DNA of 17,188 nt. It comes from an uncultured Bacilli bacterium. Its GTDB lineage: Bacteria > Bacillota_I > Bacilli_A > RF39 > UBA660. The notes beneath the pieces are model-generated. The model was not told where the DNA came from. It ran no database searches and saw nothing but the letters and a program-made list of their open reading frames with translations. Both the position numbers and the translations under genes were made by a program. The DNA is taken from NCBI GenBank assembly GCA_947625005.1, contig CANQNA010000012.1, positions 1 through 17,188 of the forward strand. The letters run 5' to 3'. Shown here one piece after another: positions 1 through 16,863 of the stretch (positions within the stretch are counted from its first letter, which is position 1; each line of letters begins with the position of its first letter).

Positions 1-315
1 ATCAATAAATACAGGTATTCCCCCTTCATAGACTATAGGATTAACTGTTGCACTAAATGTCATATCACTGCAAAAAACTTTATCTCCTAATTTTACTCCA
101 GCAAGTTTTACTGCTAAATGCAATGCTGCTGTTCCTGATGATAATGCCACTGCATATTTAGTTCCAACTTTTTTAGCAATTTTTTTCTCTATTTCATTAA
201 TGTTTTCACCTACAGTTGACATCCAGTTTGTATCATAGGCTTCTTTAACCCATTTCATTTCTTCTCCATGCATTGTTGGTGATGATAACCATACTTTATT
301 TTTAAAAGGTTCCAT
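1..315 (-). CDS. DegT/DnrJ/EryC1-family nucleotide-sugar aminotransferase (N-terminal part, cut by window edge)
   Basis: The first 105 codons of a PLP-dependent sugar aminotransferase are visible; the gene runs off the left edge. The reading starts MEPFKNKVWLSSPTMHGEE and contains the fold-type I features SSGTAALHLAVKLAG and SDMTFSATVNP, followed by GGIPVFID, all typical of the DegT/PglE/ArnB family N-terminus. The ATG at 315-313 is preceded by GGAGAAG six or so bases upstream, which fixes the start. Family knowledge: such enzymes transfer an amino group from glutamate to a UDP-4-keto-6-deoxy sugar, the product of a PglF/WbpM-type dehydratase. A remnant of exactly such a dehydratase lies directly upstream, and a longer copy lies at 6172-8050, so a UDP-4-amino-4,6-dideoxy-HexNAc is the likely product. 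It appears to be transcribed now from the promoter at 526-554. The catalytic lysine lies beyond the window. Confidence 0.88.
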   Translation of the reverse strand, partial: MEPFKNKVWLSSPTMHGEEMKWVKEAYDTNWMSTVGENINEIEKKIAKKVGTKYAVALSSGTAALHLAVKLAGVKLGDKVFCSDMTFSATVNPIVYEGGIPVFID

Positions 316-627: not shown

Positions 628-1410
628 TTATAATTTTATAATATCGTTTATTGTTTTATTTTTAGCCCATTCCAAAGCATTTTCATAGTCTTCATTTGTA
701 TCAAATTCAATCCATCCATTACAAAAGTGTATTGCCTTTACTTCTTCTCCAGACTCTATTATTGCATTTAACAAATCTGTCATATATGCTTTACTAACTA
801 TTTTACCAGATTGTTGCCATGGCTTGTTTTCAAAATTTTTGTGTGCTTCTTCCATTGTTTTTACAATAAAAGATAAACCTTTTTTAGAAAATTTTAATAG
901 ACCAATATACCTTGCACTAATTTCTTCAATTGGTGAATTTTCTAAACCTAATTCTACAATATTATTATTTGAATCGATTTTTAAACTTTCAGTGTCAAAA
1001 TCTATTCTTCCATATCTTTTTTTCCAATACTCTTTCCAGTTGTCATCTACTGCACAATTAAAATCTCCTTTGGCTAAAATCATTTCTTTTAATAATTCTG
1101 GTTCAAATAAAATATCTGAATAACTTACTATAATATCATCATCAAATTCATCTTTAGCTTTTAGAAGAGTTTCAACCATATTAGTTGTTGCAAATTCTTC
1201 ATTTGTATAATATTTTACACCATCATAGTTAATTTTGTCTCCTGCATATCCTTTTACAATAATAATATTGTTTATACCACAAGTTTTATACATCTCGATT
1301 TGTCTTTCAATTATAGTTTTTCCCATAAAATTTAACATTCCTTTTGGTAAATTTTCAGTATATTTTTTTAATCTGTTCCCTTGACCAGCTGCTAAAATAA
1401 TTGCTTTCAT
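628..1410 (-). CDS. LicC-like nucleotidyltransferase, probable CTP:glutamine-phosphate cytidylyltransferase (Cj1416-like)
   Basis: A 260-residue sugar-phosphate-type nucleotidyltransferase. The N-terminus MKAIILAAGQGNRLKKYTE is the GxGxR nucleotide loop, followed by the LPKGML lysine segment; the metal/substrate segment IIVSYSDILFEPE and a late WIEFDTNEDYENA match the LicC/NTP_transferase family. The start is the ATG at 1410-1408: GGAGG at 1419-1423 precedes it by eight bases, while the ATG five codons upstream has no site of its own. Only one base separates it from the stop of the amidotransferase gene, whose last codons supply the ribosome site, so translation is probably coupled. Taken alone it could be a phosphocholine or other sugar cytidylyltransferase. 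Behind a PEP-synthase-like kinase and a class I amidotransferase, in the same order as C. jejuni Cj1418-Cj1417-Cj1416, the best assignment is CTP + L-glutamine phosphate to CDP-L-glutamine + PPi. This function is inferred from context. Confidence 0.82.
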   Translation of the reverse strand: MKAIILAAGQGNRLKKYTENLPKGMLNFMGKTIIERQIEMYKTCGINNIIIVKGYAGDKINYDGVKYYTNEEFATTNMVETLLKAKDEFDDDIIVSYSDILFEPELLKEMILAKGDFNCAVDDNWKEYWKKRYGRIDFDTESLKIDSNNNIVELGLENSPIEEISARYIGLLKFSKKGLSFIVKTMEEAHKNFENKPWQQSGKIVSKAYMTDLLNAIIESGEEVKAIHFCNGWIEFDTNEDYENALEWAKNKTINDIIKL

Positions 1411-1411
1411 T

Positions 1412-2017
1412 CTATTTTCCTCCAAATAATTTTTTTATTAAATTTATATCTTCTATTCTAAATTCATTTTCTCTTTCAGGATGCCACATAGTACCAATTA
1501 TGGGTAAACTTTTATGTCTTATTTTTTCTATAACACCATCTTCTGCTTGCATAATTACTTCCAGTGAATCATTATTTAGCTTTTTACAAGCTTGAGTATG
1601 AAAACTATTAACTTCTATTTCATTTTCTTTACCTTTTATCTTATGTCTTATAGCTACATGTCCTGGCACATTATTTAAATCATTTTTAAAATAATCTAAA
1701 ATTGATTGCATTCCTCTACAAAAGCCATATAATGGTATTTTTTGGTCAATAGCATATTCTATCAGTAGATAATCCACTTCATCTCTTTCTATGGCATTTC
1801 CACCATATTTAACTAAGCTGTTTCCACCAGTTAAAATAATTCCATTAGGCTTTATATTTTTTAATATTTCTTTTACTATTTCGACATTATTAGGTATAGG
1901 GATTGGTAAATAACCACATTTTTGTATAAACTCTGGAATTCTTTGATCTGCACAATCTCTTCTTTCATTATACTTATCTACCATTTCAACTCTTTGAGTA
2001 TATATAACTATATTCAT
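1412..2017 (-). CDS. Class I glutamine amidotransferase-like hydrolase, probable gamma-glutamyl-CDP-amidate hydrolase (Cj1417-like)
   Basis: A 201-residue single-domain class I amidotransferase (peptidase C26 / gamma-glutamyl hydrolase type). The nucleophile elbow is LYGFCRGMQSI with Cys100, and the HPE pair is in GTMWHPERE (His179, Glu181); ILTGG near residue 62 is the usual oxyanion-side loop. There is no synthetase domain, so it is not a fused amidotransferase. The ATG at 2017 has GAGGTG about eight bases upstream; the gene starts 14 bases after the kinase gene and its last codons carry the ribosome site of the next gene. In C. jejuni the homologous Cj1417 hydrolyses CDP-L-glutamine to cytidine diphosphoramidate plus glutamate; the same order and neighbours here support that role. 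A generic gamma-glutamyl-GABA-like hydrolase is the alternative if context is ignored. Confidence 0.84.
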   Translation of the reverse strand: MNIVIYTQRVEMVDKYNERRDCADQRIPEFIQKCGYLPIPIPNNVEIVKEILKNIKPNGIILTGGNSLVKYGGNAIERDEVDYLLIEYAIDQKIPLYGFCRGMQSILDYFKNDLNNVPGHVAIRHKIKGKENEIEVNSFHTQACKKLNNDSLEVIMQAEDGVIEKIRHKSLPIIGTMWHPERENEFRIEDINLIKKLFGGK

Positions 2018-2031
2018 ATATTAGCACCTCA

Positions 2032-4824
2032 TTATTTTTCTCTTATAATTTTTTCATTTTTACAATCTATAGTAATAACTTCTGAATTTATAACATAGTC
2101 AAATAATTTAGCTCCACTACCAATAGCTGCTGGAATTTTAAATTCTGCACATCTTATAGCCATGTGAGAAGCAGCACCACCATATTTTGTTACTAATCCA
2201 CATATTCCTTTTGAAAAAATCCAATCATACCCTGGATCTGCTTTTTCTATTACAACAATTTTTCCTTCTATAGAACTTTCTACTATGTCATCATCTAAAA
2301 CTATCACATTATTTGTAACTCTACTTTCTGTAATAAAATTTGGTCTTGAATCTATTAATTCTATACAATCAAAATCTGTTTTGGAAGATATTACTTCAGG
2401 CAAAATTAAGCTTGAATTAATTTTATAATTATATTTTCTCTGATTTATAACTAAGTTCCAGAATTTTTTCATTTGTTCTACATCAGAATAAAACTCTAAT
2501 GCATATATTTCTGAAACCTCTAAATATGATAAATCCTTTGTTTCAAAGCCCAAGCTATTTCCAATTTGCTTAATTAGTTCTATAGCATAGCTTAAAGTTT
2601 TTGTGAAAATAAATTTAAAATACTCCCTTTGTTCAATAGATTGTTTTATAAAATAAATTACATCTTTTCCACATAAATTTTTTATCTTTGCTTTTTCTAA
2701 TGCTTTGTTTATAGCGTCACATAATACTTTGTCTATATTTTTGTTATTATTGCATTTTTCAATTTTTTGATTTGATTTTTCACCTTGTGCAATTAAATTA
2801 TCAATTTGGTCATATCTAGGGCTTCTAATATTATATGTACCTGCTCTTAAATGACCATACTTTGATTTAAATTGTTCGATTTTTAGATTGCCTTTTTGAA
2901 CATCATGATATTCTTTATCATATTCAACTGCTATTGTGTGAATGCTTGACATAAATTGATTAAACTCGTTAGAAGTAATATATCCTTCATTGACAAGCGA
3001 CTTACAAATTGACTTAGCAATAAAAGCGCATCTGGCATGTCTTGAAAATTGTGGTGTTCCAAATTTTTCAATTGAATCTAATAAAATATGAATAGATTTA
3101 GCTATTAATTTATAATCATTACTGCCTTTAATATTATTTTGTATATCAAGTCTTATTACTTCTAGTTTTCTTAAATCTTCTATATCATCATTTAAATATT
3201 TTGGATAATTATTAATATTTTCTATTGTAATATGTTTTAAAGCTTCTTCTAATTCTGAAATTTCTTCATTACTAAATCCATCATTTCTTAGTTCTTTCAT
3301 TCTTTTATGCATTGAAAAATCATAGCAATTATGTGATATTTCAAATTCTATTTTATCATGAGCAGACAAGTCATTTTTTAATTTTTTTAAATAACTATTT
3401 TTTAACTTATTAGCAAGGCTATTTGAAATACTAGCCGGCATCAATGCTTCAAATGATCTTTCTAAGTTAATATATGGTTTATTACCAAAGCGAAACATTA
3501 ATTCATGTGGAATTGAACGATAACCTAATGGAACAAGCCCACTATTCCAAGCAATTTTAGTTATTATTTCTCGGTACAGAGAATAGTCTAAATTTTTAGG
3601 ATTATCTCCTATTATTTCTGCTGGATTCCAAAAAGCCATATCTGAATAATAAGCCATTTTTTCTTTTAATAATTTATTGTATTGTAAAATTGCAATTTTT
3701 TTTGCCTCTTCTATTTTATCAATATCATTTTTTCTACCAAATTTATAAGCTGCTGCTAGTGGTCTAACTTGAAAAATAACAATACTTGATTCTGTAACTG
3801 CAAATTCAATATCGAGTAAAATCCCTTTAAAAATATTTTCAATTTCATTAACAGCATCCATTAATTTTTTCCATTTTTTTGGTATATTGTTTTTATTTAT
3901 TGTATAAGAAATCCAAGCTGATTTTCCTCCAGCTCCTGAAGTAACAGAATCTGTACTTCCACTAACATCATAGTTTATAACATAATATGGTCTGTTTTTT
4001 TGAATATCTCGTGTAAATATAACTCCTGACATTAATACATTATTTGTTTGTGTCTGAATTAATATTTGCTCATCTTTTTCAGCATCATCTCCATATGATT
4101 TTATAACTTTATTAATGGCATTCTTTATATCATTTAAATTTGAAGAATTTACATTAAGCACACTTGTAAAATGACCTGCATTAGATTCTTGAAAAGCATC
4201 TTCTCTTTTAGATGAACTTCTTACAACAATCTTTTTACCTTTAAATTTCGTTTTTATATTATTTAATACGTTATCTAGATTGTTTTTTAAATCATTATAT
4301 GTAATAACAAAAATATCTTCTATAACAGATTTTTTCACCAATTCTTTTAAAGCCAACAATGTATTAGCTTTTGTTGATATAAGATTATTATTAATATAAC
4401 TATTTTCTACTTCTTTTTTATTTAAAGTATCTAATATCTTTTGTGGAGATAATCTGTCATAATAATCAATCTTTACAGCATGTCCACCTATTGATTCTAT
4501 ATATTTTTTTGCAGACATAACTCCCCATTCATTTCCATGATATAATGTAATTTCAGCATCTGGATATTTTTCATGAATTTTCTTTAAATTATCTGTTGGA
4601 TCGAAAGTCAATTGTGGTATAACTTTATCTATAAATTTTATACTTTCAATAACACTTCTACGTTCTTTTTCATTTGATACATGAACGCCATATAAAGCAT
4701 CAGATGCTTCATCACTAACTAGTCCGAAAATACTTATATCAGAATATTTACTAGCTTTTTTTAAAGCTACTATATGACCATAATGTATTAAATCAACCAT
4801 TCCGAAACTATATGATATTTTCAT
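2032..4824 (-). CDS. Fusion protein: N-terminal HxGH nucleotidyltransferase-like domain + PEP-synthase-like L-glutamine kinase (Cj1418-like)
   Basis: A 930-residue multidomain enzyme. Residues 1-140 form a cytidylyltransferase-like Rossmann domain with HYGH at 14-17 and a possible RLSPQKI (124-130) in place of the usual RTxGISTT. Residues about 160-365 are the ATP-grasp domain of the PPDK/PEP synthase class, with VRSSSKREDA at 201-210, the NAGHFTSVLNV segment and IFQVRPLA near 350-357. A long helical region follows. The C-terminal phosphohistidine swivel domain (about 840-925) has YGGAASHMAIR with the probable phospho-acceptor His887. In C. jejuni the PEP-synthase-like Cj1418 is a glutamine kinase (ATP + Gln to glutamine phosphate + AMP + Pi) that starts phosphoramidate synthesis, and the next two genes here match its partners. 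The ATG at 4824 has AGGAG about 11 bases upstream. The nucleotidyltransferase domain is the odd part. The kinase assignment rests on domain class plus gene order. Confidence 0.8.
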   Translation of the reverse strand: MKISYSFGMVDLIHYGHIVALKKASKYSDISIFGLVSDEASDALYGVHVSNEKERRSVIESIKFIDKVIPQLTFDPTDNLKKIHEKYPDAEITLYHGNEWGVMSAKKYIESIGGHAVKIDYYDRLSPQKILDTLNKKEVENSYINNNLISTKANTLLALKELVKKSVIEDIFVITYNDLKNNLDNVLNNIKTKFKGKKIVVRSSSKREDAFQESNAGHFTSVLNVNSSNLNDIKNAINKVIKSYGDDAEKDEQILIQTQTNNVLMSGVIFTRDIQKNRPYYVINYDVSGSTDSVTSGAGGKSAWISYTINKNNIPKKWKKLMDAVNEIENIFKGILLDIEFAVTESSIVIFQVRPLAAAYKFGRKNDIDKIEEAKKIAILQYNKLLKEKMAYYSDMAFWNPAEIIGDNPKNLDYSLYREIITKIAWNSGLVPLGYRSIPHELMFRFGNKPYINLERSFEALMPASISNSLANKLKNSYLKKLKNDLSAHDKIEFEISHNCYDFSMHKRMKELRNDGFSNEEISELEEALKHITIENINNYPKYLNDDIEDLRKLEVIRLDIQNNIKGSNDYKLIAKSIHILLDSIEKFGTPQFSRHARCAFIAKSICKSLVNEGYITSNEFNQFMSSIHTIAVEYDKEYHDVQKGNLKIEQFKSKYGHLRAGTYNIRSPRYDQIDNLIAQGEKSNQKIEKCNNNKNIDKVLCDAINKALEKAKIKNLCGKDVIYFIKQSIEQREYFKFIFTKTLSYAIELIKQIGNSLGFETKDLSYLEVSEIYALEFYSDVEQMKKFWNLVINQRKYNYKINSSLILPEVISSKTDFDCIELIDSRPNFITESRVTNNVIVLDDDIVESSIEGKIVVIEKADPGYDWIFSKGICGLVTKYGGAASHMAIRCAEFKIPAAIGSGAKLFDYVINSEVITIDCKNEKIIREK

Positions 4825-4883: not shown

Positions 4884-6035
4884 TTATGCTATAATATTAT
4901 CTATATATTTTCTTGCGTTTCCATCACTTTCAATAAATTCTTCTTTAAATTTTTTTGTTTTTATCTTTTCTAATTCAAAATTGCAATTTATTATTTTTTC
5001 TAATAATTCATCTTCTTTTTTGCAAATACCATTTGGTAACTCTTTTTCTAAATCAATATAAAGTCCTCTTTTTTCTTCAAATTCATCATAATCATAAGCA
5101 TAACTGTATATTGGTCTTTCTAATATTGAATAGTCAAGCATTATACTTGAATAATCTGAAATTAATATATCAGATATCTTCAATAGTTCATTTAAATTTG
5201 GATAATCTGAAACATTTGTTATGAAATCATCTGTTTTTATTCCTAATATTTTGCTTATTTCGTAATGTGCTCTAAATAAAATTATATATTTATTAGATAA
5301 TTTTTCTCTCCATTTTTCTATATCAATTGGTGGTGCTATAAAACATCCATCTTTATCTCTATTAAATTCTCTAAAAGTTGGTGCATACATAATTACTTTT
5401 TTGTCTTTTGGAATATTTAATTTTTCTCTTATTTTTATTATTTCTTCTTCAGTCGTTGAAAAAAGTTCATCATCTCTAGGATATCCTACTAAAACAACTT
5501 TTTCTTTTGGTATGTTACATACTCTAGGCATATTTTCTAAATCATATTTATTTTGGGCATACACTATATCGCATTTTGAAGTCTTAAATTTAAATGCATT
5601 TATATTTGCATCATTACCCATTTTTTTTAGGCTTCCATGCCATGTATTAATATATATTGTGTTTTTGTTTTTGAATTTTAATCCTCTCTCAATTGATGAA
5701 TTTGTTATCCAATATTTAGCTTTTAATGCGATGATAAAATAATGTAGTGTATCTGTTTTTATTTTTTCAGCTCCTTCTACCTCAAATTCATCTGGATTAT
5801 GGAAAGCCCAATATATTTTATATTTTTTATACTTTTCTTGTGTTTTCATATATTCAAAAATTACTCTTGTGCTATCATCATACTTTTTGCCTCCAAAAGA
5901 ATTCATTAAAATAATATCATCTTCTACTTTTACAAATATTCTTAATATACTAAGAAATAAATTAAAGCAAAAAGAATATACTTTATATATAAAAGTATTT
6001 GTTTTTAGAATATTTTTTATTTTATTTTTTATCAT
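4884..6035 (-). CDS. CDP-glycerol:glycerophosphotransferase family protein (TagB/TagF-like)
   Basis: A 383-residue member of the CDP-glycerol glycerophosphotransferase family (GT-B fold). Signatures are INTWHGSLKKMG (His133), IMYAPTFR near 215-222, FRAHYE (His257) and LLKISDILISDYSSIMLDY around 284-302. The N-terminal 35 residues are hydrophobic and basic, fitting membrane association at the cytoplasmic face. The family attacks the beta-phosphate of a CDP-alcohol, releases CMP and leaves a phosphodiester on a glycan or lipid-linked acceptor. The ATG at 6035 overlaps the TGA of an upstream sugar transferase remnant (ATGA), and AAGGG lies about ten bases upstream. It precedes the phosphoramidate genes by 59 bases and probably shares their transcript. 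The donor might be CDP-glycerol, or, more speculatively, cytidine diphosphoramidate. The family is clear; the donor and acceptor are not. Confidence 0.88.
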   Translation of the reverse strand: MIKNKIKNILKTNTFIYKVYSFCFNLFLSILRIFVKVEDDIILMNSFGGKKYDDSTRVIFEYMKTQEKYKKYKIYWAFHNPDEFEVEGAEKIKTDTLHYFIIALKAKYWITNSSIERGLKFKNKNTIYINTWHGSLKKMGNDANINAFKFKTSKCDIVYAQNKYDLENMPRVCNIPKEKVVLVGYPRDDELFSTTEEEIIKIREKLNIPKDKKVIMYAPTFREFNRDKDGCFIAPPIDIEKWREKLSNKYIILFRAHYEISKILGIKTDDFITNVSDYPNLNELLKISDILISDYSSIMLDYSILERPIYSYAYDYDEFEEKRGLYIDLEKELPNGICKKEDELLEKIINCNFELEKIKTKKFKEEFIESDGNARKYIDNIIA

Positions 6036-6171: not shown

Positions 6172-6702
6172 TTAATTGTTTATATTAATTTTTGCTTCTT
6201 TATATGTTGGCACAACTGCCTTCATTACTTCTTTTATTCCTTCTTTTTGCTCATTTTTGCACTCATGTATAATAATGTCATTTAATTTTTCTAATTTTTC
6301 TTCTATATCTTTCATTTCAATATCTGATGGTGGTGCTATGTAAATTTTATCATGTTTGGTCTCAGTTAATCCTTCTTCTTCCATTAATAATTCTTCATAC
6401 AATTTTTCTCCTGGTCTAAGCCCAGTTACTTTTATTTGTATATCTACATTTGGTTCTAAACCTGATAATTTGATTAATTTTTCTGCCATTTCATAAATCT
6501 TAACTGGTTTTCCCATGTCTAATACAAATATCTCTCCGCCTTTTGCATATGTTATAGCTTGTAATACAAGAGATACTGCTTCTGGTATTGTCATAAAGAA
6601 CCTTGTAATCTCTTTATGAGTAACTGTTACTGGTCCACCACTTGCAATTTGTTTTTTAAATAGTGGTATAACAGATCCATTACTTCCGAAGTACATTGCC
6701 AA
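6172..6702 (-). pseudogene. pglF: PglF/WbpM-type UDP-GlcNAc 4,6-dehydratase, C-terminal piece after a frameshift
   Basis: This frame holds the last ~171 residues of the dehydratase that begins at 8050. The expected family sequence [16 protein letters not shown] is interrupted: the upstream frame reads RFGNVLRK then stops, while this frame picks up at [14 protein letters not shown]. The cause is one extra base (G at 6688 on the plus strand, C in the gene). The piece continues with [30 protein letters not shown] and a lysine-rich tail ending in NINN, all normal for the family. The only nearby in-frame start, TTG at 6702, has no ribosome site, so this part is unlikely to be made on its own. Its 3' end is duplicated at 328-521. 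A sequencing or assembly error is an alternative to a true mutation. Confidence 0.85.
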
Positions 6703-8050
6703 ATCTTACTGCTGCATATTCAGTTTTGCTTACCTTATCTTTTGCTTGTATTATCATTTCACATAGACGTTTTGTTGCTCCCATAATGTTAGTTGGATTA
6801 ACTGCCTTATCTGTTGAAATTAAGATAAATCTTTTCACATTGTATTTGTCAGCACAATTTACTACATTATAAGTTCCAAATACATTATTTTTAATTGCTT
6901 CTAATGGGCTGGTCTCCATTAAAGGTACATGCTTATGAGCTGCTGCATGAAATACTAAATATGGATTAAATTCTTCAAATATTTCATTTAATCTATTTTT
7001 ATCTCTTATGCTTGCAACAATAGCTTCTATTTTTAATTTTGGATAATTAAATTTTAACTCTTGCTCTATATCATATAAGTTATTTTCATAAATGTCAACT
7101 ATTATTAATCTTTCTGGTTTAAATTTTGCAATTTGCCTGCATAGTTCTGACCCAATAGAACCTCCTCCACCAGTAATTAATACAACTTTATTTTCAATTA
7201 GTTTTCTTATGTTTTTGTTATCTAATTTTATTGGTTCTCTTCCTAATAAATCTTCTATTTCTACATTTCTAAAGCTATCCATAAGTGATTTATTTTTTAC
7301 TAATTCTTTTATTCCTGGTAATATTCTTACTTTACATCCTGTTTCTTGACAAATTTCAAGTATTTTTCTTCTTTCTTCATTTGATATATTTGATATTGCA
7401 AAAAAGATAAATTCAACATTATTTTCTTTGCATATTCTTGGTATATCATATCTTGTTCCTAATATTTTATTTCCTGATATTGCATAATCTAATTTATTTG
7501 GGTTGTCATCTATTAGTCCTACTACATTATATATATCTTTCATACTGACTTTTAAATTTCCCAATAATATTTTTGTTGCTTCTCCTGCTCCTATGATTAG
7601 TATATTTTTCTTATTAGAATCTTCTTTTTTATTTTTTTTGTCATATATTTCTGTTAAAAACATTCTAATTATAACTCTATATCCTATTATAGATATAACT
7701 ATTAAAAGTCCAGCAATTAAATTAGTTCTTGCACTTACTATTGGTATTTTTGGTATTGTTAGATAAATAAATGTCATTACCATACAAGCAATTGAACATG
7801 CAAGCACATATATTAAATAGTCATTTCCATTTTCATATCTTGTTATATTTTTATAAGTTTTAAAAAATTCTAATGTTGCACCATATATAATAATTGCAAT
7901 AAAAATTGTGTTAATAATCATTTTATTTGTTTGTGTTGTTATAATAATATGGTTTCCTATAATACTTTCAGCAATATAATATGCTAGAATTATTACTATA
8001 ACATCCATAATTCTTAAGTATACATTTCTATGTTTTTTTATGAATTTCAC
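6680..8050 (-). pseudogene. pglF: PglF/WbpM-type UDP-GlcNAc 4,6-dehydratase, N-terminal piece up to the frameshift
   Basis: The long membrane form of the nucleotide-sugar 4,6-dehydratase. Counting from an upstream in-frame ATG at 8074, there are about four transmembrane segments in residues 20-140, a first nucleotide-binding domain starting NILIIGAGEATK (157-168), the Rossmann loop TGGGGSIGSELC (301-312) and the active-site region STDKAVNPTNIMGATK (420-435), with Met in place of the usual Tyr as in PglF/WbpM. Restoring the frame at 6688 gives about 625 residues, the normal family size. I prefer the GTG start at 8050 (VKFIKKHRN) because AAAGGGGA lies about eight bases upstream, while the ATG at 8074 has no ribosome site. 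It would convert UDP-GlcNAc to the 4-keto-6-deoxy sugar for the aminotransferase at the left edge. As written the product is truncated in the C-terminal domain and probably inactive. Confidence 0.87.
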
Positions 8051-8106
8051 TAGTATTTCCCCTTTTATGTTCATTTATGTGTACTATTTATACAAACACC
8101 ACATTT

Positions 8107-8309: not shown

Positions 8310-8819
8310 TTATTTGATTATTTTTTTTGCTATTACTGCTAATCCAACTATTGCTAATATTGAACTACCAATAGCTATTACGTTTACATTGTTTCCTGTG
8401 TATGGTAATGTTCCTGATTCACTAACACTTTCAACTAATTTTCCATCTTTATAAACTTCGATTCCATCAGCTGAAAAGTTTAATGTTACTCCTGCAATAC
8501 TTGCTGCATCATTTGCTAATGTTCTTAATTGTGCTTTTACATCAGTTGGTAATGATTTGTAATCAGTTGTACCATTTTCTTGCATAATTTTATCAGCTTG
8601 GTTTGCTAAAGCTAATATTTCGTTGCATTTTTCATCAGATAATGGATAGTCACTTAAATATCTTACCATTCTTAATTTATCTGATTCTTTCATTCCATAT
8701 TTGCTTCCTATTGCATATATTTCATCTGGTAAATTATTTGATGTTGCTGCGTTTACAGCTGTCATTACGACCATTGTTAGCATAATAAATAATAATGCTA
8801 TTGTTAATAATTTTTTCAT
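8310..8819 (-). CDS. Small secreted surface protein with LPYTG sortase-type anchor
   Basis: A 169-residue protein with a classic signal peptide (MKKLL, then a hydrophobic core to about residue 20, likely cleavage after AVNA at 21-24). A soluble helical region of about 110 residues follows, and a C-terminal sorting signal: LPYTG at 138-142, a hydrophobic stretch (about 146-163) and the tail KKIIK. The middle contains YGMKESDKLRMVRYLSDYPLSDE, then an EVYKDGKLVES strand region; I recall similar small proteins in Clostridia but know no function. Start ATG at 8819 with GGGAGG eight bases upstream. It has its own promoter and terminator, so it is a separate unit lying between two polysaccharide operons. 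It may be covalently attached to peptidoglycan by a sortase encoded elsewhere, or simply retained in the membrane. Confidence 0.85.
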   Translation of the reverse strand: MKKLLTIALLFIMLTMVVMTAVNAATSNNLPDEIYAIGSKYGMKESDKLRMVRYLSDYPLSDEKCNEILALANQADKIMQENGTTDYKSLPTDVKAQLRTLANDAASIAGVTLNFSADGIEVYKDGKLVESVSESGTLPYTGNNVNVIAIGSSILAIVGLAVIAKKIIK

Positions 8820-8985: not shown

Positions 8986-9390
8986 CTAATTAGATAATTC
9001 TTTTTTTATTGCAGATGAGCATATTCCCGGTGTTCTTTTTAATCTAACCACTTCTTTTCCTTTTTTTCTACACCAATCTTCAACTATAGTAAAACGCCCT
9101 CCTATATGATCTTCGCCAAGTGCTAAAATATCAAAATCTATTTTTTCTAGAGTTTCTGGATCAACACTATTATATACACACACTTCATCTACTATTTTTA
9201 AAGCTTCTAATATTTCAACACGTTCCTCCGTTGAATATAATACTTTTGCATCTGGTTTATATTTCAAAATATAATCTCCATTTTGAACAGCAACAATTAA
9301 ATAATCCGCATGTTCCTTACATTGTTTAAACAATCTTAAATGTCCTATATGAAAATAATCATATACTCCAAAAGTTAAAATTTTCTTCAT
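8986..9390 (-). CDS. tagD: TagD-like glycerol-3-phosphate cytidylyltransferase
   Basis: A 134-residue cytidylyltransferase, the usual length of TagD-type enzymes. It has the HxGH motif as HIGH at 14-17, the YSTEERVEILEALKIVDEV helix region (52-70) and RTPGICSSAIKK near 119-130, the counterpart of RTxGISTTxI. The reaction is CTP + glycerol 3-phosphate (or a close alcohol phosphate) to the CDP-alcohol + PPi, supplying donor for CDP-glycerol-type transferases; two such transferases occur in the window. ATG at 9390 with GGAG about eight bases upstream; last gene of the upstream operon, 40 bases after the HAD gene. The substitution of Cys and Ser in the ISTT motif and the adjoining phosphatase leave room for a substrate other than sn-glycerol 3-phosphate. 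Confidence 0.85.
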   Translation of the reverse strand: MKKILTFGVYDYFHIGHLRLFKQCKEHADYLIVAVQNGDYILKYKPDAKVLYSTEERVEILEALKIVDEVCVYNSVDPETLEKIDFDILALGEDHIGGRFTIVEDWCRKKGKEVVRLKRTPGICSSAIKKELSN

Positions 9391-9430: not shown

Positions 9431-10033
9431 CTATAATAGTTTATTTAAAAAATTAGCACATTTTTTATCATCATAAAATGCATAATCAATGTTTTTTAGT
9501 AACGAAGGTGCAATATCTCTTACTCCACCAAATCCAATTGCAATATCAGATAATTTCGCCATTCCTGTATCATTATCTCCATCGCCGATAACTACTGTTG
9601 GTAAAACAAATTGTTTAATAATTAATTCTTTATCTAGTACACTCACTACTTGAGAAATATAATCATTTTTTACTTGTGCTTTTGAGCAATAAACATGGTC
9701 TTTCATTCCAAGATTATCCATTAATTTACTAATCCACACATCAAGATTTCCTGTTATAACATAGCATCGCTCTTTATTTCTGATTATAAAATCTACTATA
9801 TACTTATTTAAAGGTATATTTGCAACCATTTCATTTACTTCTGAAACACTTACATTACTTAAAATTTTAACTCGCTTTAAAAAACTAGTTCTGAATGGAA
9901 TTTTTCCTTGCATAGTTGTCTCAGTAAGTTCTCTCATTTTTTCTAATTTACCAATTTTTTCTGAAATAGTTGGTAAAATTTCTTTTTTTGTTATTGTTGA
10001 ATCTAAATCAAATAAAAAAATATAATTCGACAA
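9431..10033 (-). CDS. SerB-like HAD-superfamily phosphatase
   Basis: A 200-residue HAD subclass I hydrolase. Motif I is FLFDLDSTIT (Asp9 nucleophile, Asp11), motif II is VITGN (Thr94), motif III includes a lysine near 140, and motif IV is VVIGDGDNDTG (Asp151, Asp155), as in phosphoserine phosphatase. The start is a TTG at 10033-10031 (residues MSNYIFLFD): GGAGGG at 10040-10045 sits six bases before it, a strong site that decides an unusual start codon. It lies between a glycerophosphotransferase and a TagD-like enzyme in the same operon, so it probably dephosphorylates a small precursor phosphate in making the alcohol moiety of the glycan. The substrate cannot be told from sequence; phosphoserine phosphatase itself is less likely here. 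Confidence 0.82.
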   Translation of the reverse strand: MSNYIFLFDLDSTITKKEILPTISEKIGKLEKMRELTETTMQGKIPFRTSFLKRVKILSNVSVSEVNEMVANIPLNKYIVDFIIRNKERCYVITGNLDVWISKLMDNLGMKDHVYCSKAQVKNDYISQVVSVLDKELIIKQFVLPTVVIGDGDNDTGMAKLSDIAIGFGGVRDIAPSLLKNIDYAFYDDKKCANFLNKLL

Positions 10034-10089: not shown

Positions 10090-11298
10090 TTAGTCCATAG
10101 AAATTCCTAATAATTTTGCTAATCTTTCTGAAGCATTTCCATCATGATATTCATATATATAATTTCTTAACTTTTCTCTACTTTCTTTATATTTATCATT
10201 TTCTTCTATAACATCAGATATAAAATTCACTAAATCTTGTAAATTATATATTTCATGTCCTGCGATTAATTTATGAATATCATCAACTACAAAACCAATT
10301 TTGTAGTCATTCATATCATCTAATACATAACCTATAGGACGATCTAATTGAAGATATTCATATGCTGCTCCTGAATAATCACTAATAAGTGCATCTGTAC
10401 ATTTTATCAATTTATAGTTATCTATACCAAGTTTCTTTACACTATCTCCAGTTAATACTTTTATATTTGACATATCACAAATACCTAAATTTGATAAATC
10501 TTGTTTAGGATGAATTTTTATAATTAAAAAAGCATCAATTTCTTTGAGTTTTTCATTAAAATCTTTATATTCATCTAATGTATTAAATAATGGTATACCT
10601 AATCTTTGTTCTTTTAAACTATCATTACGATTAAATGCCATCCCCTTTCTAAAAGTAGGCATCCATAAAATTATTTTTTTATATTTTTTATCTGTGATTT
10701 TCAAAAATTCTGATTTATCATCAATATAAAATGTATCTTGAGCAGGAAAACCTATATATACAAATCTCTTATCTTTTGCATCTAACGACCATTGATTTGC
10801 TTGAATAGGTGCATAATTTTTTGATTGAACTAGAATATAATCAACACTATCTGGAATAAATATTTTTCCTTTAGCATTTTTTAGTCCTCCTGCACCATGT
10901 GAGCAATATACTACTTTCTGGTCAGCTCTTAACTTGCTTACACTTTCGCAATCATATGTAAAATATTTTGCTGTACAAATGTGATAAGCTTTTTTTATGC
11001 TTGGTCCAAGTAATGGAACAGTACTGACATTGATTGGAAGGTTACTTTTTACTTTTTTTCGTACTAACCATACAATTTTATATTTTTTATTATATCCATG
11101 TTCTATTAAGTAATTATAAAATGCGCCCCCATTACAATCAAAATCATTGTGACTTTCTATTAAAATTTTATCTTTCAGTGGTCTACTTTTTGTAAATAAA
11201 TATATAATTTTTTCATATATTATTTCAATCTTATACTTCCATAAAACTTGAAATGCTCTTTTTAAACCATTTGTTTTTAAATATTCTAATTTATTCAT
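10090..11298 (-). CDS. CDP-glycerol:polyglycerophosphate transferase family protein
   Basis: A 402-residue protein of the glycerophosphotransferase family, from a different subgroup than the one at 4884-6035. Family marks are VVYCSHGAGGLKNAKG (His134), ILWMPTFRKG (210-218), IIKIHPKQD (His263) and DALISDYSGAAYEYLQLDRP (302 onward). There is no multi-pass membrane domain; it acts at the cytoplasmic membrane on a lipid-linked glycan. The first 40 residues are basic and partly hydrophobic. The ATG at 11298 has AAAGGAAA about nine bases upstream and follows the flippase stop by 26 bases. With the downstream TagD-like enzyme it probably adds glycerol phosphate or a related group to the repeat unit. 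Donor and acceptor remain unproven. Confidence 0.86.
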   Translation of the reverse strand: MNKLEYLKTNGLKRAFQVLWKYKIEIIYEKIIYLFTKSRPLKDKILIESHNDFDCNGGAFYNYLIEHGYNKKYKIVWLVRKKVKSNLPINVSTVPLLGPSIKKAYHICTAKYFTYDCESVSKLRADQKVVYCSHGAGGLKNAKGKIFIPDSVDYILVQSKNYAPIQANQWSLDAKDKRFVYIGFPAQDTFYIDDKSEFLKITDKKYKKIILWMPTFRKGMAFNRNDSLKEQRLGIPLFNTLDEYKDFNEKLKEIDAFLIIKIHPKQDLSNLGICDMSNIKVLTGDSVKKLGIDNYKLIKCTDALISDYSGAAYEYLQLDRPIGYVLDDMNDYKIGFVVDDIHKLIAGHEIYNLQDLVNFISDVIEENDKYKESREKLRNYIYEYHDGNASERLAKLLGISMD

Positions 11299-11324: not shown

Positions 11325-12770
11325 TTATTTTTTTAAAGTTTTTATAGTAGTAATTATATAATTTCTTTTTATAAACATAAACAAAACTATACCTATGATT
11401 ATTGCATATCTAATTAATAAAAATTCATATATTATAGACATAATAACCATCATTACTAAAACAAATAGTCCAACTATTGTCATTAATTTTATATCATAAA
11501 TATTTTTCAATTCAGAAAATTTTTCTTTTACTATTTTTCTATAAAAGATATAATGAAAGAAAGATAAACAAATATAACAAATTAAAGTTGTATATCCAGC
11601 TGCATAATATCCAAATATTTTAATTCCAAAATAATTTAAAATTAAATTTAAAATTGCACTAATACTTGTTGCTATTGCAATTAATCCTGTTTTTTCATAA
11701 TAATATTCAATTGTACTAAACATAGAGTATATAAATATAAAATAAACAGATGCAGTAATAGGTGGTATAACATAAATAGAATCCATGTACTCTTTTCCAG
11801 CAAAGATATTAATAATCTCTGGTGCAAATGCCATTATTACAACAGATAATATTGCAATCAATATTGTAATAGGATTTATTTTGTTTTTTATTTTTTCAGG
11901 ATGATCATCATTAATTGTTTTATAAATATAAGGCGTTAAAGAATTATTTATTGCTACAACTAATATCATCATTACATTAGAAATTGTATTAGATATACTA
12001 TAATATGCAGTTTGAATTTTTCCCACCATTTTACCAATCATTAGTCTATCAGACTGATTTAATATATAATTTGATAAATAATGTGGTATTAGAGGTAAAT
12101 TAAATTTTAATGCATATTTCCAATATTTTTTATCATATATCTTTTTTCCTTTAACAAAAATAATAATAAATATTACGCCTGCAAATAGTAGTTTTGCAAA
12201 TACATCTGAAAAAATGCGTGCTTCAACTTTATAAGATGTATTAAATATAGTTAAAACACTTAATCCTACACAAAGAGCGTTCATACATATTGATATTATA
12301 ATTATTTTTTTATAATTATAATCAAATCTTTCCTTTGCACACCAAAATTCAAATGCAGGCATCACTAGTAGTTCAATAAAAATTGCTCCCATTAAAATAG
12401 GAGAAAGTTCAAATACCTTAGTCCAAAAATCAATATTAATCAAATATACAACACCAAAAATTAGTGTAATGCAAGTTGTTAGAGAAAGTTGCGATGATGT
12501 GAAACCATCAGTATCATCTTTATATAAAAGTAAGCCTTTTGTATATCCACTCAAAAAGATATTTAAAGAAGTAAAAATTATTAGTATATTAAACCATGAT
12601 TGAAAAATAGCAAATGTTCCATATTGTTCTTCTGTTAAGATTCTTGTAAAAATTGGAGTAGATAAAAGTGCAATACCTTTATTAATAAAATTACATATTG
12701 TGTACCATAAAGCTGCTTTAACTGGCTTAGACATATCGTTATATTTACTAATAATTTTTTTGATATACAT
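11325..12770 (-). CDS. wzx: Wzx-type oligosaccharide flippase
   Basis: A 481-residue polytopic membrane protein of the polysaccharide_synt/MATE-like flippase family. It opens with an amphipathic start and the characteristic segment FINKGIALLSTPIFTRILT followed by EEQYGTFAIF, then about 12-14 transmembrane helices with basic loops, including FNLPLIPHYLSNYILNQSDR and the MIGKMVG element in the middle. Such proteins move undecaprenyl-diphosphate-linked repeat units across the membrane. ATG at 12770 with GAAGGGA about nine bases upstream; it directly follows the polymerase gene (41-base gap), the usual Wzx/Wzy pairing. Length is normal for the family. Confidence 0.9.
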   Translation of the reverse strand: MYIKKIISKYNDMSKPVKAALWYTICNFINKGIALLSTPIFTRILTEEQYGTFAIFQSWFNILIIFTSLNIFLSGYTKGLLLYKDDTDGFTSSQLSLTTCITLIFGVVYLINIDFWTKVFELSPILMGAIFIELLVMPAFEFWCAKERFDYNYKKIIIISICMNALCVGLSVLTIFNTSYKVEARIFSDVFAKLLFAGVIFIIIFVKGKKIYDKKYWKYALKFNLPLIPHYLSNYILNQSDRLMIGKMVGKIQTAYYSISNTISNVMMILVVAINNSLTPYIYKTINDDHPEKIKNKINPITILIAILSVVIMAFAPEIINIFAGKEYMDSIYVIPPITASVYFIFIYSMFSTIEYYYEKTGLIAIATSISAILNLILNYFGIKIFGYYAAGYTTLICYICLSFFHYIFYRKIVKEKFSELKNIYDIKLMTIVGLFVLVMMVIMSIIYEFLLIRYAIIIGIVLFMFIKRNYIITTIKTLKK

Positions 12771-12811: not shown

Positions 12812-14512
12812 TTAATGAAATTTCTTTTCATCTTTTAATTTATAATAATGCTCTTTATCTCTATATTTAAATGCTTTTGCAGGATGTCCTCCAGCTATTG
12901 CACATTCTGGTATATCATTGCAAACTACACTTCCAGCTTGAATTATTGCTCCTTCTCCAATTGTTACGCCTCCAAGAATTATAACATTATTTCCTAACCA
13001 AACATTATCTCCAATTGTTACATCTTTATTTATAAATGTATTATCATATGGAATTTCATTACCTTCGTAATTATGAAATGATGTTATTATCTGACATCCA
13101 GGACCGGAATGAAAGTTATCCCCTATGCTAATAGTTCCTTGACCAGACATTGACATTCCATTAAAGCAAACATTATTTCCTAAATAAGTTTTGTCAGTTA
13201 CATAGCTTTTTCCTCCAACATATATTCTTCCTTTATATGAAGCAGATTTTTTCTTTATTTTATATGGATAATATATATTTGCAAATTTTAATTTCATTTT
13301 ACTAATCAGACCCATATTTATATTTTTCTCTCCTTTTTTTATATCTTTAATTATATTTGGTAAAGCATAAATCATTGATAAACAAATGTACATATAACAA
13401 TATAATGAAGTACTTTCAAAAATCATTATTGCAGAAAAGATAATTATAATAACATTTATAAGCACTTTATATTTTTCACTCAAAATTTTTTTAGTGTTTT
13501 TACAAAAAGTAAAAATCATAAGCCAAAATGTTATAGCACCAACTAGCCCTCCATCTAAAAAATTTTGTAAAATTTGATTATGTGCATAATTAAATCCATC
13601 TACATTAGTCCATTTATTCCAAAAAACATTTAATAAAACTCCTTCTATACCATATCCAAATATTATTTTATTTTTTATTTTAGACAAAGCATCAACCCAA
13701 ACAAAACTACGCCCAGAAAAGTCTAAAAAATAAATTGCATTATTAAATTTTATATTATTAATAACTGATATACAAACTATTGTTACACTAGCAATTATTC
13801 CAATAGTAATATATATATTAGTACTATATTTTAAAAAATTATATTTCTTAACTTTATATAAAAATGCAAACATACATAAAATAATACATGTAATTTTTGC
13901 TGATGATGCATCGGTTGTTATCATAGTAAATAGAGCCAATATAACAATTAATATTGTTCGTTTTTTCTTTTCATGAAACATCATCCAATAAATTATAGCA
14001 CTAAAAATTGATAAAGCACCTAATTGTGCAATCATCTGAACATGTCCTAAGAAGGTTATATGATATTGTTGTAAAAAAAATTTACGTAATATTAGCTGAT
14101 TCAATATAAACAATACCATAAATACATTATTTATAATATTTAAAAAATCTTTAGGATCTTTTTTTAAATTATATATAGTAAAAAGACATATTGAAGGATA
14201 TGTAATTAATTTTTGATATCCATTAATTGAAAATCCTCTTAGTATAAATGTTATTAAAATAGTCACGATAAAATAATTAGCAATAATTATATTTTCTTTT
14301 TTTAAAATTTCTTCTTTTTTTAAGAAAAAAAAGAAAAATTGTATCCATATAATTATTGTAGAAATCCATACACAACATGTAAATATATTTTTATATACTA
14401 AACTAAATTCTGCATATCCCCTTGGAAATAAAAAGGAGATAATGATAAAATAATTAATAAATTTGCTTATCGAAAATTGTAATTTATGATTAATAGTTTC
14501 TATACTATTCAT
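12812..14512 (-). CDS. wzy: Wzy/O-antigen-ligase-like polymerase fused to a hexapeptide acetyltransferase
   Basis: A 566-residue open frame with two parts. Residues 1-390 are a polytopic membrane protein with about 10-12 helices and the Wzy_C/O-antigen ligase pattern: FSGRSFVWVDAL, then IIFGYGIEGV and YAHNQILQNFLDGGLVGAIT. Residues about 400-566 are a left-handed beta-helix acetyltransferase with GNNV/IGDN hexapeptide turns, the insert ITSFHNYEG with a likely catalytic His, IGDNVWLGNNVIILGGV and the end signature AGGHPAKAFKY. The polymerase would join repeat units outside the membrane; the acetyltransferase would act on a sugar inside the cell. At the joint, an ATG (13313-13315) is preceded by AGGAGAG (13328-13334), so the acetyltransferase may also be made separately. 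The ATG at 14512 overlaps the previous stop, with AAGGAAA ten bases upstream. Neighbours are a sugar transferase and Wzx. Confidence 0.85.
   Translation of the reverse strand: MNSIETINHKLQFSISKFINYFIIISFLFPRGYAEFSLVYKNIFTCCVWISTIIIWIQFFFFFLKKEEILKKENIIIANYFIVTILITFILRGFSINGYQKLITYPSICLFTIYNLKKDPKDFLNIINNVFMVLFILNQLILRKFFLQQYHITFLGHVQMIAQLGALSIFSAIIYWMMFHEKKKRTILIVILALFTMITTDASSAKITCIILCMFAFLYKVKKYNFLKYSTNIYITIGIIASVTIVCISVINNIKFNNAIYFLDFSGRSFVWVDALSKIKNKIIFGYGIEGVLLNVFWNKWTNVDGFNYAHNQILQNFLDGGLVGAITFWLMIFTFCKNTKKILSEKYKVLINVIIIIFSAIMIFESTSLYCYMYICLSMIYALPNIIKDIKKGEKNINMGLISKMKLKFANIYYPYKIKKKSASYKGRIYVGGKSYVTDKTYLGNNVCFNGMSMSGQGTISIGDNFHSGPGCQIITSFHNYEGNEIPYDNTFINKDVTIGDNVWLGNNVIILGGVTIGEGAIIQAGSVVCNDIPECAIAGGHPAKAFKYRDKEHYYKLKDEKKFH
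13313..13334 (-). promoter_or_regulatory. Possible internal ribosome site and start for the acetyltransferase domain
   Basis: Inside the polymerase-acetyltransferase frame, AGGAGAG (13328-13334) precedes an in-frame ATG (13313-13315) by 12 bases. Translation from here would give a 167-residue acetyltransferase starting MGLISKMKLKF, a usual size for that family. The spacing is longer than ideal, and the site also encodes KKGEK, so it may be a leftover from when the two genes were separate. Confidence 0.45.
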
Positions 14513-15795: not shown

Positions 15796-16863
15796 TTATA
15801 ATTTATTGTATATATCATTATAATTAGCTATAAAAATTTCATAACTAAATTTTTCGTCAAATGTTTTTTTAGCATTTTTTTCTAAAGTATTTCTTATCTC
15901 TGTATTATATATCAATCTATTTATTTTTTCAGCAAGATCACTAACATTATCTTTTTCAAATAATAATCCATTATATTCATCTTTAACAATTTCATTGTTT
16001 CCATCTATATTAGAAGCAATAATTGTTTTGCCCATTGAAAAAGTTTCAATAGGAGTTAATGGAAAGCCTTCCCATCTAGAAGCTAAAACAATAAAATCCA
16101 TTTGGGATATTAATTCCATTACATCATTTCTATATCCTAAAAATTTTACATTGTCTTGTATTTCTAATTTTTGTGACAAAGATTCTAATTCTTGCATTAA
16201 TTCTCCATCACCTATCACAATTGCAAAAATATTTTTATTTTTGTTAATTATTTTTGACATAGCAGAAATAAATATATCAATTCCTTTTTGTTCAGTAAGT
16301 CTTCCAATTGTACCAATTAAAATTTTATTACTTTCATTTTTTAAAAAATCATCTTTAGGTCTATCTATCTCTTTTTGTTTTTCTATAGAATTATATATAA
16401 CTTTTATTCTTTCTTCTTTAATTTTATAAAATTTAACTAAATTATTTTTTACTGCATCTCCAACAGCAACAATTTCAGAACCTCTTAATGAAAACCTTAA
16501 TAATTTCTTTTTATTATAAAAAATATTATGTGCTGTATAAATTCTTTTAATTTTTTTGTTAAATATATTTAAAATTTTACTATAAAAAGCGGCCATTCTA
16601 TGATGCGAATGAATTATAGTTATTTTTTCTTTTTTTATTATTTTATTTAACATAAAAAAAGTTCTTATTAAAGTAATTGGTTTTTTACTATTTATATCTG
16701 GTATACAATAATGTTTTATACCTATTTTAGATAATTCGTCTTCATAAATTCCTCCTGTCGATGCAATAACCATTTCAATATTATTGCAATCTTTACATAT
16801 TTGATAAACGACTTTTTCTGCTCCACCTTGTCCCATTGTTCTTGAAATATGTAAAATTTTCAT
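15796..16863 (-). CDS. GT4-family glycosyltransferase
   Basis: A 355-residue GT-B glycosyltransferase of the GT4 class. The N-terminal domain opens with MKILHISRTMGQGGAEKVVY; the C-terminal nucleotide-sugar domain starts around ILIGTIGRLTEQKGIDIFI (Arg188, Lys193) and carries the EX7E motif in WEGFPLTPIETFSMG (Glu265 and Glu273). Retaining enzymes of this class transfer a hexose or HexNAc from an NDP-sugar to a lipid-linked acceptor in the cytoplasm. ATG at 16863 overlaps by one base the stop of the epimerase gene (TAATG); GAGGAG nine bases upstream is inside that gene. Given the adjacent UDP-GlcNAc 2-epimerase, UDP-ManNAc is a plausible donor, but this is inference. Confidence 0.9.
   Translation of the reverse strand: MKILHISRTMGQGGAEKVVYQICKDCNNIEMVIASTGGIYEDELSKIGIKHYCIPDINSKKPITLIRTFFMLNKIIKKEKITIIHSHHRMAAFYSKILNIFNKKIKRIYTAHNIFYNKKKLLRFSLRGSEIVAVGDAVKNNLVKFYKIKEERIKVIYNSIEKQKEIDRPKDDFLKNESNKILIGTIGRLTEQKGIDIFISAMSKIINKNKNIFAIVIGDGELMQELESLSQKLEIQDNVKFLGYRNDVMELISQMDFIVLASRWEGFPLTPIETFSMGKTIIASNIDGNNEIVKDEYNGLLFEKDNVSDLAEKINRLIYNTEIRNTLEKNAKKTFDEKFSYEIFIANYNDIYNKL

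Follow-up and report, generated by a model that had tools for sequence, protein, structure and literature searches.

A 17,188-nucleotide contig from an uncultured bacterium of the Bacilli (CANQNA010000012.1, assembly GCA_947625005.1; this whole stretch is called the window) harbors three adjacent genes, for a kinase, a hydrolase, and a nucleotidyltransferase, which are best read as an MpnD-independent variant of the cytidine diphosphate (CDP)-amidate pathway decorating a surface glycan. We put at roughly 0.6 the probability that the operon makes a CDP-activated phosphoramidate and that a transferase adds the phosphorus–nitrogen (P–N) group to a phosphate-containing surface glycan. The kind of pathway is known from Campylobacter; as far as literature titles and abstracts show, its breadth, the fused architecture of the kinase, the motif peculiar to the fused domain, and the lack of MpnD are new. 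More tentative, at somewhat less than even odds, is the wider proposal that phosphoramidate-bearing glycans are also made by a second, MpnD-independent route, one spread widely among groups from Bacillota and Synergistota to Melainabacteria and Bacteroidota and proceeding via a bifunctional P–N-forming kinase whose cytidylyltransferase-fold domain carries a new active-site motif, a P–N counterpart of the phosphoenolpyruvate (PEP) mutase–cytidylyltransferase fusion.

The kinase, hydrolase, and nucleotidyltransferase

An initial annotation had likened the three genes, in fold and order, to the Campylobacter jejuni capsule genes Cj1418, Cj1417, and Cj1416 (mpnA, mpnB, and mpnC). The genes, their location on the minus strand, the ATP-grasp and swivel domains, and the residues named for them (His887; Cys100, His179, and Glu181; GxGxR) are all confirmed.

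2032..4824, minus strand: kinase, MpnA/Cj1418-like, 930 amino acids, with a fused N-terminal cytidylyltransferase-fold domain (NF004508, PPDK_N, PEP-utilizers, CTP_transf_like)
4405..4824, minus strand: N-terminal domain of the kinase, residues 1–140 (Foldseek, column counts)
1412..2017, minus strand: hydrolase, MpnB/Cj1417-like, class I amidotransferase fold, 201 amino acids (NF045546, triad)
628..1425, minus strand: nucleotidyltransferase, MpnC/Cj1416-like, LicC fold family, 265 amino acids from a TTG start, with an ATG at 1410 (LicC 1jyk, profile A4)

Kinase and hydrolase genes are 14 nt apart, hydrolase and nucleotidyltransferase genes 1 nt if counted from the ATG, which is closely preceded by GGAGG. 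The order is that of mpnA-B-C in C. jejuni HS1 and the sizes match, with 779, 200, and 253 amino acids given for HS1 in PMC7901785 and about 785 (kinase part), 201, and 265 in the window. The proposed match to Cj1418–Cj1416 is supported in part, gene order included; it is not one to one, since the window kinase bears an extra N-terminal domain.

The kinase combines a PPDK_N (ATP-grasp) with a PEP-utilizers (swivel) domain. Its residues 145–927 score 770 bits against the NCBIfam equivalog PRK05849/NF004508 (cut-off 501), which we take to cover Cj1418; no PEP synthase model exceeds 56 bits. His887 is invariant across 64 aligned kinase rows. The PRK05849 cut-off is also passed by all eight other kinases scanned, with 891–968 bits for unfused relatives that have both partners and 730–744 bits for relatives without the nucleotidyltransferase. 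The AlphaFold2 model has a mean predicted local distance difference test (pLDDT) value of 86, and the best Foldseek match of the kinase part is rifampin phosphotransferase (5fbs, TMt 0.39). From its family, the kinase is predicted to phosphorylate glutamine.

For the hydrolase, the best NCBIfam model is NF045546, γ-glutamyl-CDP-amidate hydrolase, with 121 bits (cut-off 250, not reached), followed by PuuD with 45. Every one of the 46 rows in its BLAST cluster, the window among them, keeps Cys100, His179, and Glu181. NF045546 is likewise the best model for all ten further hydrolases or hydrolase domains scanned (65–139 bits), eight of them from cassette loci (L072, L078, the domain in L019, L059, L015, L077, L016, and L001) and two being database proteins (P0244 and P0148). 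A far copy from Halanaerobium (L013) scores 59.5 bits, a small margin over the 56 bits reached by other proteins of the same genome. In a search with a Vibrio hydrolase, some listed matches bear names such as N5-(cytidine 5′-diphosphoramidyl)-L-glutamine hydrolase, and no Campylobacter name occurs among the 120 matches listed of 2,517.

The closest solved relative of the nucleotidyltransferase is LicC (1jyk). Its AAGxGxR and PK motifs are kept in 40 of 41 rows, the remaining row being gapped there. When a profile built from 20 cassette copies (A4) was used to search 42 genomes, the cassette copy scored 361–399 bits in seven of seven fused-type genomes and any other listed protein 108 or less; judged by sequence, the cassette nucleotidyltransferase is a group of its own. 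No curated model named CTP:phosphoglutamine cytidylyltransferase is among the 25 of 41 families listed for window proteins. On the model scores and this grouping, generic assignments as PEP synthase, PuuD, and LicC were rejected. The models and profiles applied place the proteins outside the generic PEP synthases, γ-glutamyl hydrolases, and phosphocholine cytidylyltransferases, the groupings that would have counted against the initial annotation.

A cytidylyltransferase-fold domain fused to the kinase

Residues 1–140 of the kinase form a separate domain with the cytidylyltransferase fold of the HIGH superfamily, matched in Foldseek by the Fom1 cytidylyltransferase domain with HEP-CMP (5x3d, TMt 0.81) and by glycerol-3-phosphate cytidylyltransferase from Staphylococcus aureus (2b7l, TMt 0.83). 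The HxGH motif is nearly invariant among 115 relatives (H14 in 113, G16 and H17 in 114), with H14 replaced by N in two of 12 more diverse members, and the ER pair (E54, R55) is kept. Decay of the domain was rejected as an explanation, D11, G16, H17, E54, R55, Q71, P76, and N79 each being kept in at least 114 of 115. TagD-type enzymes carry the C-terminal motif RTxGISTTxI. This motif does not occur at the end of the fused domain, which closes with [YF]Yxx[LM]S (next residue P or R for ten of 12 diverse members) and reaches only 34 bits against the TagD model TIGR01518 (cut-off 165). A plain TagD was rejected on account of the differing closing motif and because the domain rarely stands alone: among 23 candidates, in a search covering lengths of about 79–252 amino acids with shared words only, five stand-alone matches were found (97–178 amino acids, on contigs of 595–7,245 bases). 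The active site is not readable from the model, since residues 123–146, which hold most of the closing motif, have pLDDT values below 50. The domain could be non-catalytic. Three roles are conceivable for it: synthesis of another CDP donor, transfer of cytidine monophosphate (CMP) from CDP-amidate onto a phosphate acceptor, or binding of the intermediate.

Relatives, architectures, and kinase tree

Relatives were collected by a genome scan with two exact peptides, from which the best 80 of 197 loci encoding a relative were taken, so that far relatives are under-sampled. Types were assigned to 79 loci and the window, L050 being dropped since a longer frame on the opposite strand masked its kinase. 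Neighboring genes were grouped into BLAST clusters, and from each cluster between one and three members were scanned. The kinase is fused in 27 rows, window included, and fused but broken in two (L057 and L065, with the kinase in pieces, labelled by hand); it is unfused with both partners in 14, carries a C-terminal extension of 225–228 amino acids with no nucleotidyltransferase in the flanks in 25, has a hydrolase without nucleotidyltransferase in four, and has neither partner in eight. Among the 27 unbroken fused rows, the hydrolase is present in 26 and the nucleotidyltransferase in 25; both are missing from L058, a contig of 3.1 kb, and L006 lacks the nucleotidyltransferase at the locus and has one elsewhere in the genome (399 bits). 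The hydrolase and any nucleotidyltransferase lie on the strand of the kinase in all 46 rows with a hydrolase (45 loci and the window), and among the 41 rows with a complete set there are 24 in which the three genes are direct neighbors, by set gap limits, in the order kinase–hydrolase–nucleotidyltransferase, an arrangement beyond chance. Four of the C-terminal extensions were read and are hydrolase domains, and the one scanned (L019) has NF045546 as its best model; such kinases with a hydrolase extension tie the kinase and hydrolase steps together.

Judged from record titles, ten phylum-level groups contain the fused form, namely Bacillota, Synergistota, Bacteroidota, Melainabacteria, Pseudomonadota, Thermodesulfobacteriota, Euryarchaeota, Marinimicrobia, Gottesmanbacteria, and, as a broken copy, Treponema; many of these genomes are metagenome-assembled genomes (MAGs), whose bins may be mixed. 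Named isolates with relatives are Anaerovibrio sp. JC8, Halanaerobium polyolivorans Z-7514, and Selenomonas caprae. In a kinase tree of 76 rows, made by a quick method with a midpoint root and leaving out L057, L065, and the partial alignments L058 and L062, an unfused clade of 14 is separated from a group of 62, to which every fused row in the tree belongs, as do the unfused L060 and L061. The forms without nucleotidyltransferase nest within the group of 62, except L066 and L074, which fall in the unfused clade. Genome-wide, no cassette nucleotidyltransferase above 101 bits is found in any of 35 genomes whose forms lack a flanking copy. The N-terminal domain of the kinase and the nucleotidyltransferase seem to have gone missing together in these forms, in whose genomes stand-alone N-terminal domains were not searched for.

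Genomes without the cassette nucleotidyltransferase hold either kinase–hydrolase fusions (25 loci, e.g., L017, L019, L021, and L023) or lone kinases (L039, L041, L048, L049, L052, and L056). The derived kinase–hydrolase forms adjoin genes for RNase Y, RecA, ProC, and a recombinase in seven to nine loci, counted by BLAST cluster, and might produce free phosphoramidate from glutamine independently of glycan metabolism. Fourteen plasmid records, from Vibrio alfacsensis, Roseovarius, Azospirillum, Agrobacterium vitis, and others (e.g., NZ_AP024168.1, NZ_CP106737.1, and NC_016588.1), carry relatives of the unfused kinase, and 11 of these records also match the window hydrolase; no Campylobacter record is among the plasmid matches.

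Several further gene clusters accompany the cassettes. A sulfotransferase-family cluster (one member scanned) lies near L005, L013, and L015, and a weakly AlgX-like one near L001, L006, L016, and L077, the L001 member scoring 24 bits (cut-off 26.5); both may belong to a transfer or finishing step. Genes of about 600 amino acids in L020, L030, L069, and L075 form a cluster of which two scanned members are LIC12162-family transferases, their likeness to the Campylobacter O-methyl phosphoramidate (MeOPN) transferase being one of size only.

The fourth enzyme, MpnD

We take Cj1415/MpnD, the CDP-amidate 3′-kinase of C. jejuni, to be a member of the adenosine 5′-phosphosulfate (APS) kinase family. 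Neither an MpnD of this family nor a methyltransferase for the O-methyl group was found among the 17 window genes scanned. Owing to this double lack and to the extra N-terminal domain, O-methyl phosphoramidate made through 3′-phospho-CDP-amidate, the Campylobacter product to which the initial annotation had pointed, cannot be inferred for the window. In C. jejuni, all four genes cj1415–cj1418 are reported to be required for MeOPN (PMC3907429), and the MpnD of strain HS1 is listed with 170 amino acids (PMC7901785).

A search of 42 genomes with PF01583 detected an APS kinase in six of 28 fused-type genomes (L015, L020, L030, L051, L055, and L057), in ten of 12 genomes of the unfused clade, and in both L060 and L061, with matches in six of 14 controls; in the remaining 22 of the 28 fused-type genomes there is no match at E 1e-10. 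The fetched flanks of five of the 14 unfused cassettes contain an APS-kinase gene. Two loci, L016 and L077, share LicD, AlgX-like, hydrolase (54 and 60% to the window copy), and nucleotidyltransferase (70 and 72%) genes; L016 encodes a fused kinase, whereas in L077 the kinase is unfused and an APS-kinase gene comes after it. This one pair is the best evidence that a fused kinase can take the place of an unfused kinase with its APS kinase, and vice versa, as exchangeable modules. One Lachnospiraceae MAG (G010) holds two unfused cassettes, L089 on contig 15 and L090 on contig 19, each with an APS-kinase relative of its own.

The surrounding glycan locus

The window is a single contig on which all 17 chosen genes lie on the minus strand, and a Pfam scan of these genes describes a surface-glycan locus:

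16863..17186, minus strand: UDP-N-acetylglucosamine 2-epimerase (WecB type), end only (Epimerase_2)
15796–16863, minus strand: GT4 glycosyltransferase (Pfam)
15205–15756, minus strand: hexapeptide acetyltransferase (Pfam)
14505–15227, minus strand: glycosyltransferase with DXD motif (Pfam)
12812..14512, minus strand: Wzy/O-antigen-ligase-like protein fused to a hexapeptide acetyltransferase (Wzy_C and Hexapep)
11325..12770, minus strand: Wzx-type flippase (Polysacc_synt)
10090..11298, minus strand: second TagF-like CDP-alcohol phosphotransferase (Glyphos_transf, 128 bits)
9431..10033, minus strand: SerB-like haloacid dehalogenase (HAD) phosphatase/phosphotransferase (TIGR00338, 78 bits, cut-off 144; HAD-IB subfamily, 66 bits, cut-off 45)
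8986..9390, minus strand: TagD-like cytidylyltransferase with RTPGICSS motif (TIGR01518, 71 bits, cut-off 165, not reached; CTP_transf_like)
8310..8819, minus strand: small secreted-looking protein with an LPYTG sorting-type C-terminal end (Gram_pos_anchor, 17.5 bits, cut-off 20, not reached)
6172..8074, minus strand: CapD-type nucleotide-sugar dehydratase in two overlapping frames, 6172–6702 and 6680–8074 (Polysacc_synt_2)
4884..6035, minus strand: TagF/TarF-like CDP-alcohol phosphotransferase (Glyphos_transf, 305 bits; TarF model, 216 bits, cut-off 550, not reached)
1..315, minus strand: DegT-family aminotransferase, start only, LegC-type best match (DegT_DnrJ_EryC1; TIGR04181, 109 bits on the fragment, cut-off 420)

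The TagF/TarF-like gene at 4884..6035 sits 59 nt upstream of the kinase gene and encodes a candidate for the transferase that would use the donor. Between 8986 and 11298, the SerB-like HAD, TagD-like, and TagF-like genes stand side by side and recall either a set for teichoic acid or the genes of the Clostridioides difficile type A glycan. Scanned apart, the two CapD-type pieces cover Polysacc_synt_2 model positions 173–291 (6172–6702) and 1–172 (6680–8074), a split due to a frameshift or an assembly error. The LPYTG protein has a signal-like start and is placed within the glycan operon. Promoter and terminator scans of the window gave results at or below chance. A Bacillota host and a Gram-positive-type envelope are plausible; the sorting-signal match stays below its cut-off, and the kinases nearest by tree path belong to two MAGs, one of Lachnospiraceae and one of Synergistota, and to Anaerovibrio, a Negativicute with a diderm envelope.

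Proposed pathway and alternatives

In the proposed pathway, the kinase would convert glutamine to N-phosphoglutamine, the LicC-like enzyme would use cytidine triphosphate (CTP) to turn this into CDP-L-glutamine, and the hydrolase would remove glutamate from it to yield cytidine diphosphoramidate, as the families of the three enzymes predict. A CDP-dependent phosphotransferase, most likely the TagF-like neighbor or a similar enzyme, may then transfer the P–N group; the gene neighborhood hints at this step. The fused cytidylyltransferase-fold domain is probably part of a step that replaces or bypasses the 3′-phosphate added by MpnD, a role suggested by co-occurrence.

Several observations weigh against this pathway or limit the support for it. 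The likeness to Cj1416–Cj1418 rests on family models, gene order, and sizes rather than on direct sequence comparison, and the sequence of the kinase does not decide its specificity for glutamine. PRK05849 is also passed by kinases from genomes without the cassette nucleotidyltransferase (L041 with 744 and L059 with 730 bits); the model therefore marks the family and is no proof of the pathway. None of the 11 hydrolases reaches the NF045546 cut-off of 250 (best 139), and all 14 control genomes have matches below that cut-off and none above it; as generic class I amidotransferases also match the model, only rank and margin carry weight. In favor of the pathway, 13 of 29 fused-type rows, counting the window, have genes of the LicD or TagF clusters in the fetched flanks, on either strand (LicD in L002, L005, L007, L010, and L016; TagF in L001, L004, L013, L015, L018, L024, L065, and the window), a figure that stands without a background rate, TagF and LicD genes being common in glycan loci. 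The supporting APS-kinase contrast (6 of 28 against 10 of 12, Fisher p 0.0004, excluding L060 and L061, whose addition gives 12 of 14, and with L066 and L074 not searched for APS kinase) is confounded by kinship, sulphate assimilation, and incomplete genomes, and most genomes are MAGs. It coincides with the main split of the tree into two clades and hence represents few independent events; moreover, the fused-type L055 and L057 have an APS kinase in their flanks, the unfused L060 and L061 fall in the other clade, and no APS kinase was found for the unfused L079 and L070. Finally, MeOPN was seen in nine of 13 Campylobacter strains with cj1416–cj1418 orthologues, as reported in PMC3907429, so that the genes alone do not prove the product.

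The alternative that survives best, itself unlikely, is that the homologous enzymes act on another carboxamide or amine and that a different P–N compound is CDP-activated. It would fit the 35% identity between the window kinase and one kinase of the unfused clade and the hydrolase scores of about half the curated cut-off or less, but the signature residues of hydrolase and nucleotidyltransferase are identical in both kinase clades, and in L077 a kinase of the unfused clade is accompanied by genes closely related to both partner genes of the window. About equally unlikely is the transfer of phosphoglutamine from CDP-glutamine, with the hydrolase serving in salvage. A CDP-amino-acid donor has been proposed for the C. 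difficile type A glycan, together with LicC-like and TagF-like enzymes (PMC10714395); against such a role in salvage, the hydrolase is no less constant than the kinase, the only unbroken fused row without it being the 3.1 kb contig, and a C-terminal extension on the kinase, identified as the hydrolase in the four copies read and the one scanned, occurs in 25 loci. We regard as still less probable that the cassette product is a phosphoramidate small molecule or metabolite. Such a product would suit the derived kinase–hydrolase proteins whose genes neighbor those for RNase Y, RecA, ProC, and a recombinase, whereas the window cassette sits amid genes for glycosyltransferases, a flippase, and a polymerase. 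A reading without P–N chemistry, as ordinary genes for teichoic acid or phosphocholine (a PEP-synthase-like protein, LicC, and a generic γ-glutamyl hydrolase), to which LicC as closest solved structure and the TagD and TagF genes might point, is very improbable and already disfavored by the wide gaps between PEP synthase and PRK05849 and between PuuD and NF045546 scores and by the separate group formed with profile A4. The CDP-amidate pathway acting on a surface glycan is our preferred reading.

Relation to known systems

Fom1, an enzyme of fosfomycin synthesis, is a PEP mutase–cytidylyltransferase fusion that makes a phosphorus–carbon bond and cytidylylates the phosphonate. The fused kinase resembles it in joining a putative phosphorus-bond-forming enzyme to a cytidylyltransferase-fold domain in one protein, the Fom1 structure 5x3d being the best fold match; it differs in that a P–N bond is predicted and a separate LicC-like nucleotidyltransferase is also present. 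The LicC–LicD system serves phosphocholine decoration. It shares with the cassette the LicC fold of the nucleotidyltransferase, and LicD-cluster genes flank five fused-type cassettes; in contrast, the nucleotidyltransferases of the cassettes group apart. For type A flagellin glycan synthesis in C. difficile (genes CD0241–CD0244), a CDP-amino acid donor is proposed; the gene products include SerB/ThrH-like and TagF-like proteins, and no glutamine kinase or hydrolase is among the genes described in PMC10714395. This CDP-threonine system unites SerB/ThrH-like, LicC-like, methyltransferase, and TagF-like genes within a single cluster. The HAD, TagD, and second TagF genes of the window differ from this set by having a TagD-like rather than LicC-like cytidylyltransferase, with no methyltransferase found. 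The closest likeness in kinase, hydrolase, and LicC-like cytidylyltransferase is to the C. jejuni mpnA–D genes (Cj1418–Cj1415), from which the window departs in the extra kinase domain, in lacking MpnD and a methyltransferase, and in a hydrolase far under the NF045546 cut-off. In the HS1 capsule locus, the mpn genes occur with tagF and tagD and the teichoic-acid-like capsule carries MeOPN, with 31P shifts of 14.2–14.85 ppm; there, mpnA is a separate gene for 779 amino acids, and mpnD and two methyltransferases are present (PMC7901785).

Implications

The glutamine kinase is called C. jejuni-specific in a 2022 review (PMC9561416), and a 2019 review states that the modification has so far been identified only in Campylobacter (PMC6429109). 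The gene family is far broader than these statements imply, the fused form alone spanning ten phylum-level groups, one of them only through a broken copy. P–N groups on glycans outside Campylobacter are not in themselves new, since phosphoramide groups have been reported in the lipopolysaccharides of Shewanella and Xanthomonas. No Gram-positive example was found in a literature search that covered titles and the starts of abstracts for part of the matches, with most subscription papers outside its reach. If the proposed pathway is correct, biological P–N bond formation would be a common surface-glycan chemistry in gut anaerobes, achieved without the 3′-phospho donor of Campylobacter. The occurrence of relatives in named isolates makes this reading testable. 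Many C. jejuni phages are reported to recognize MeOPN, and the decoration, if present, would bear on phage adsorption and host contact.

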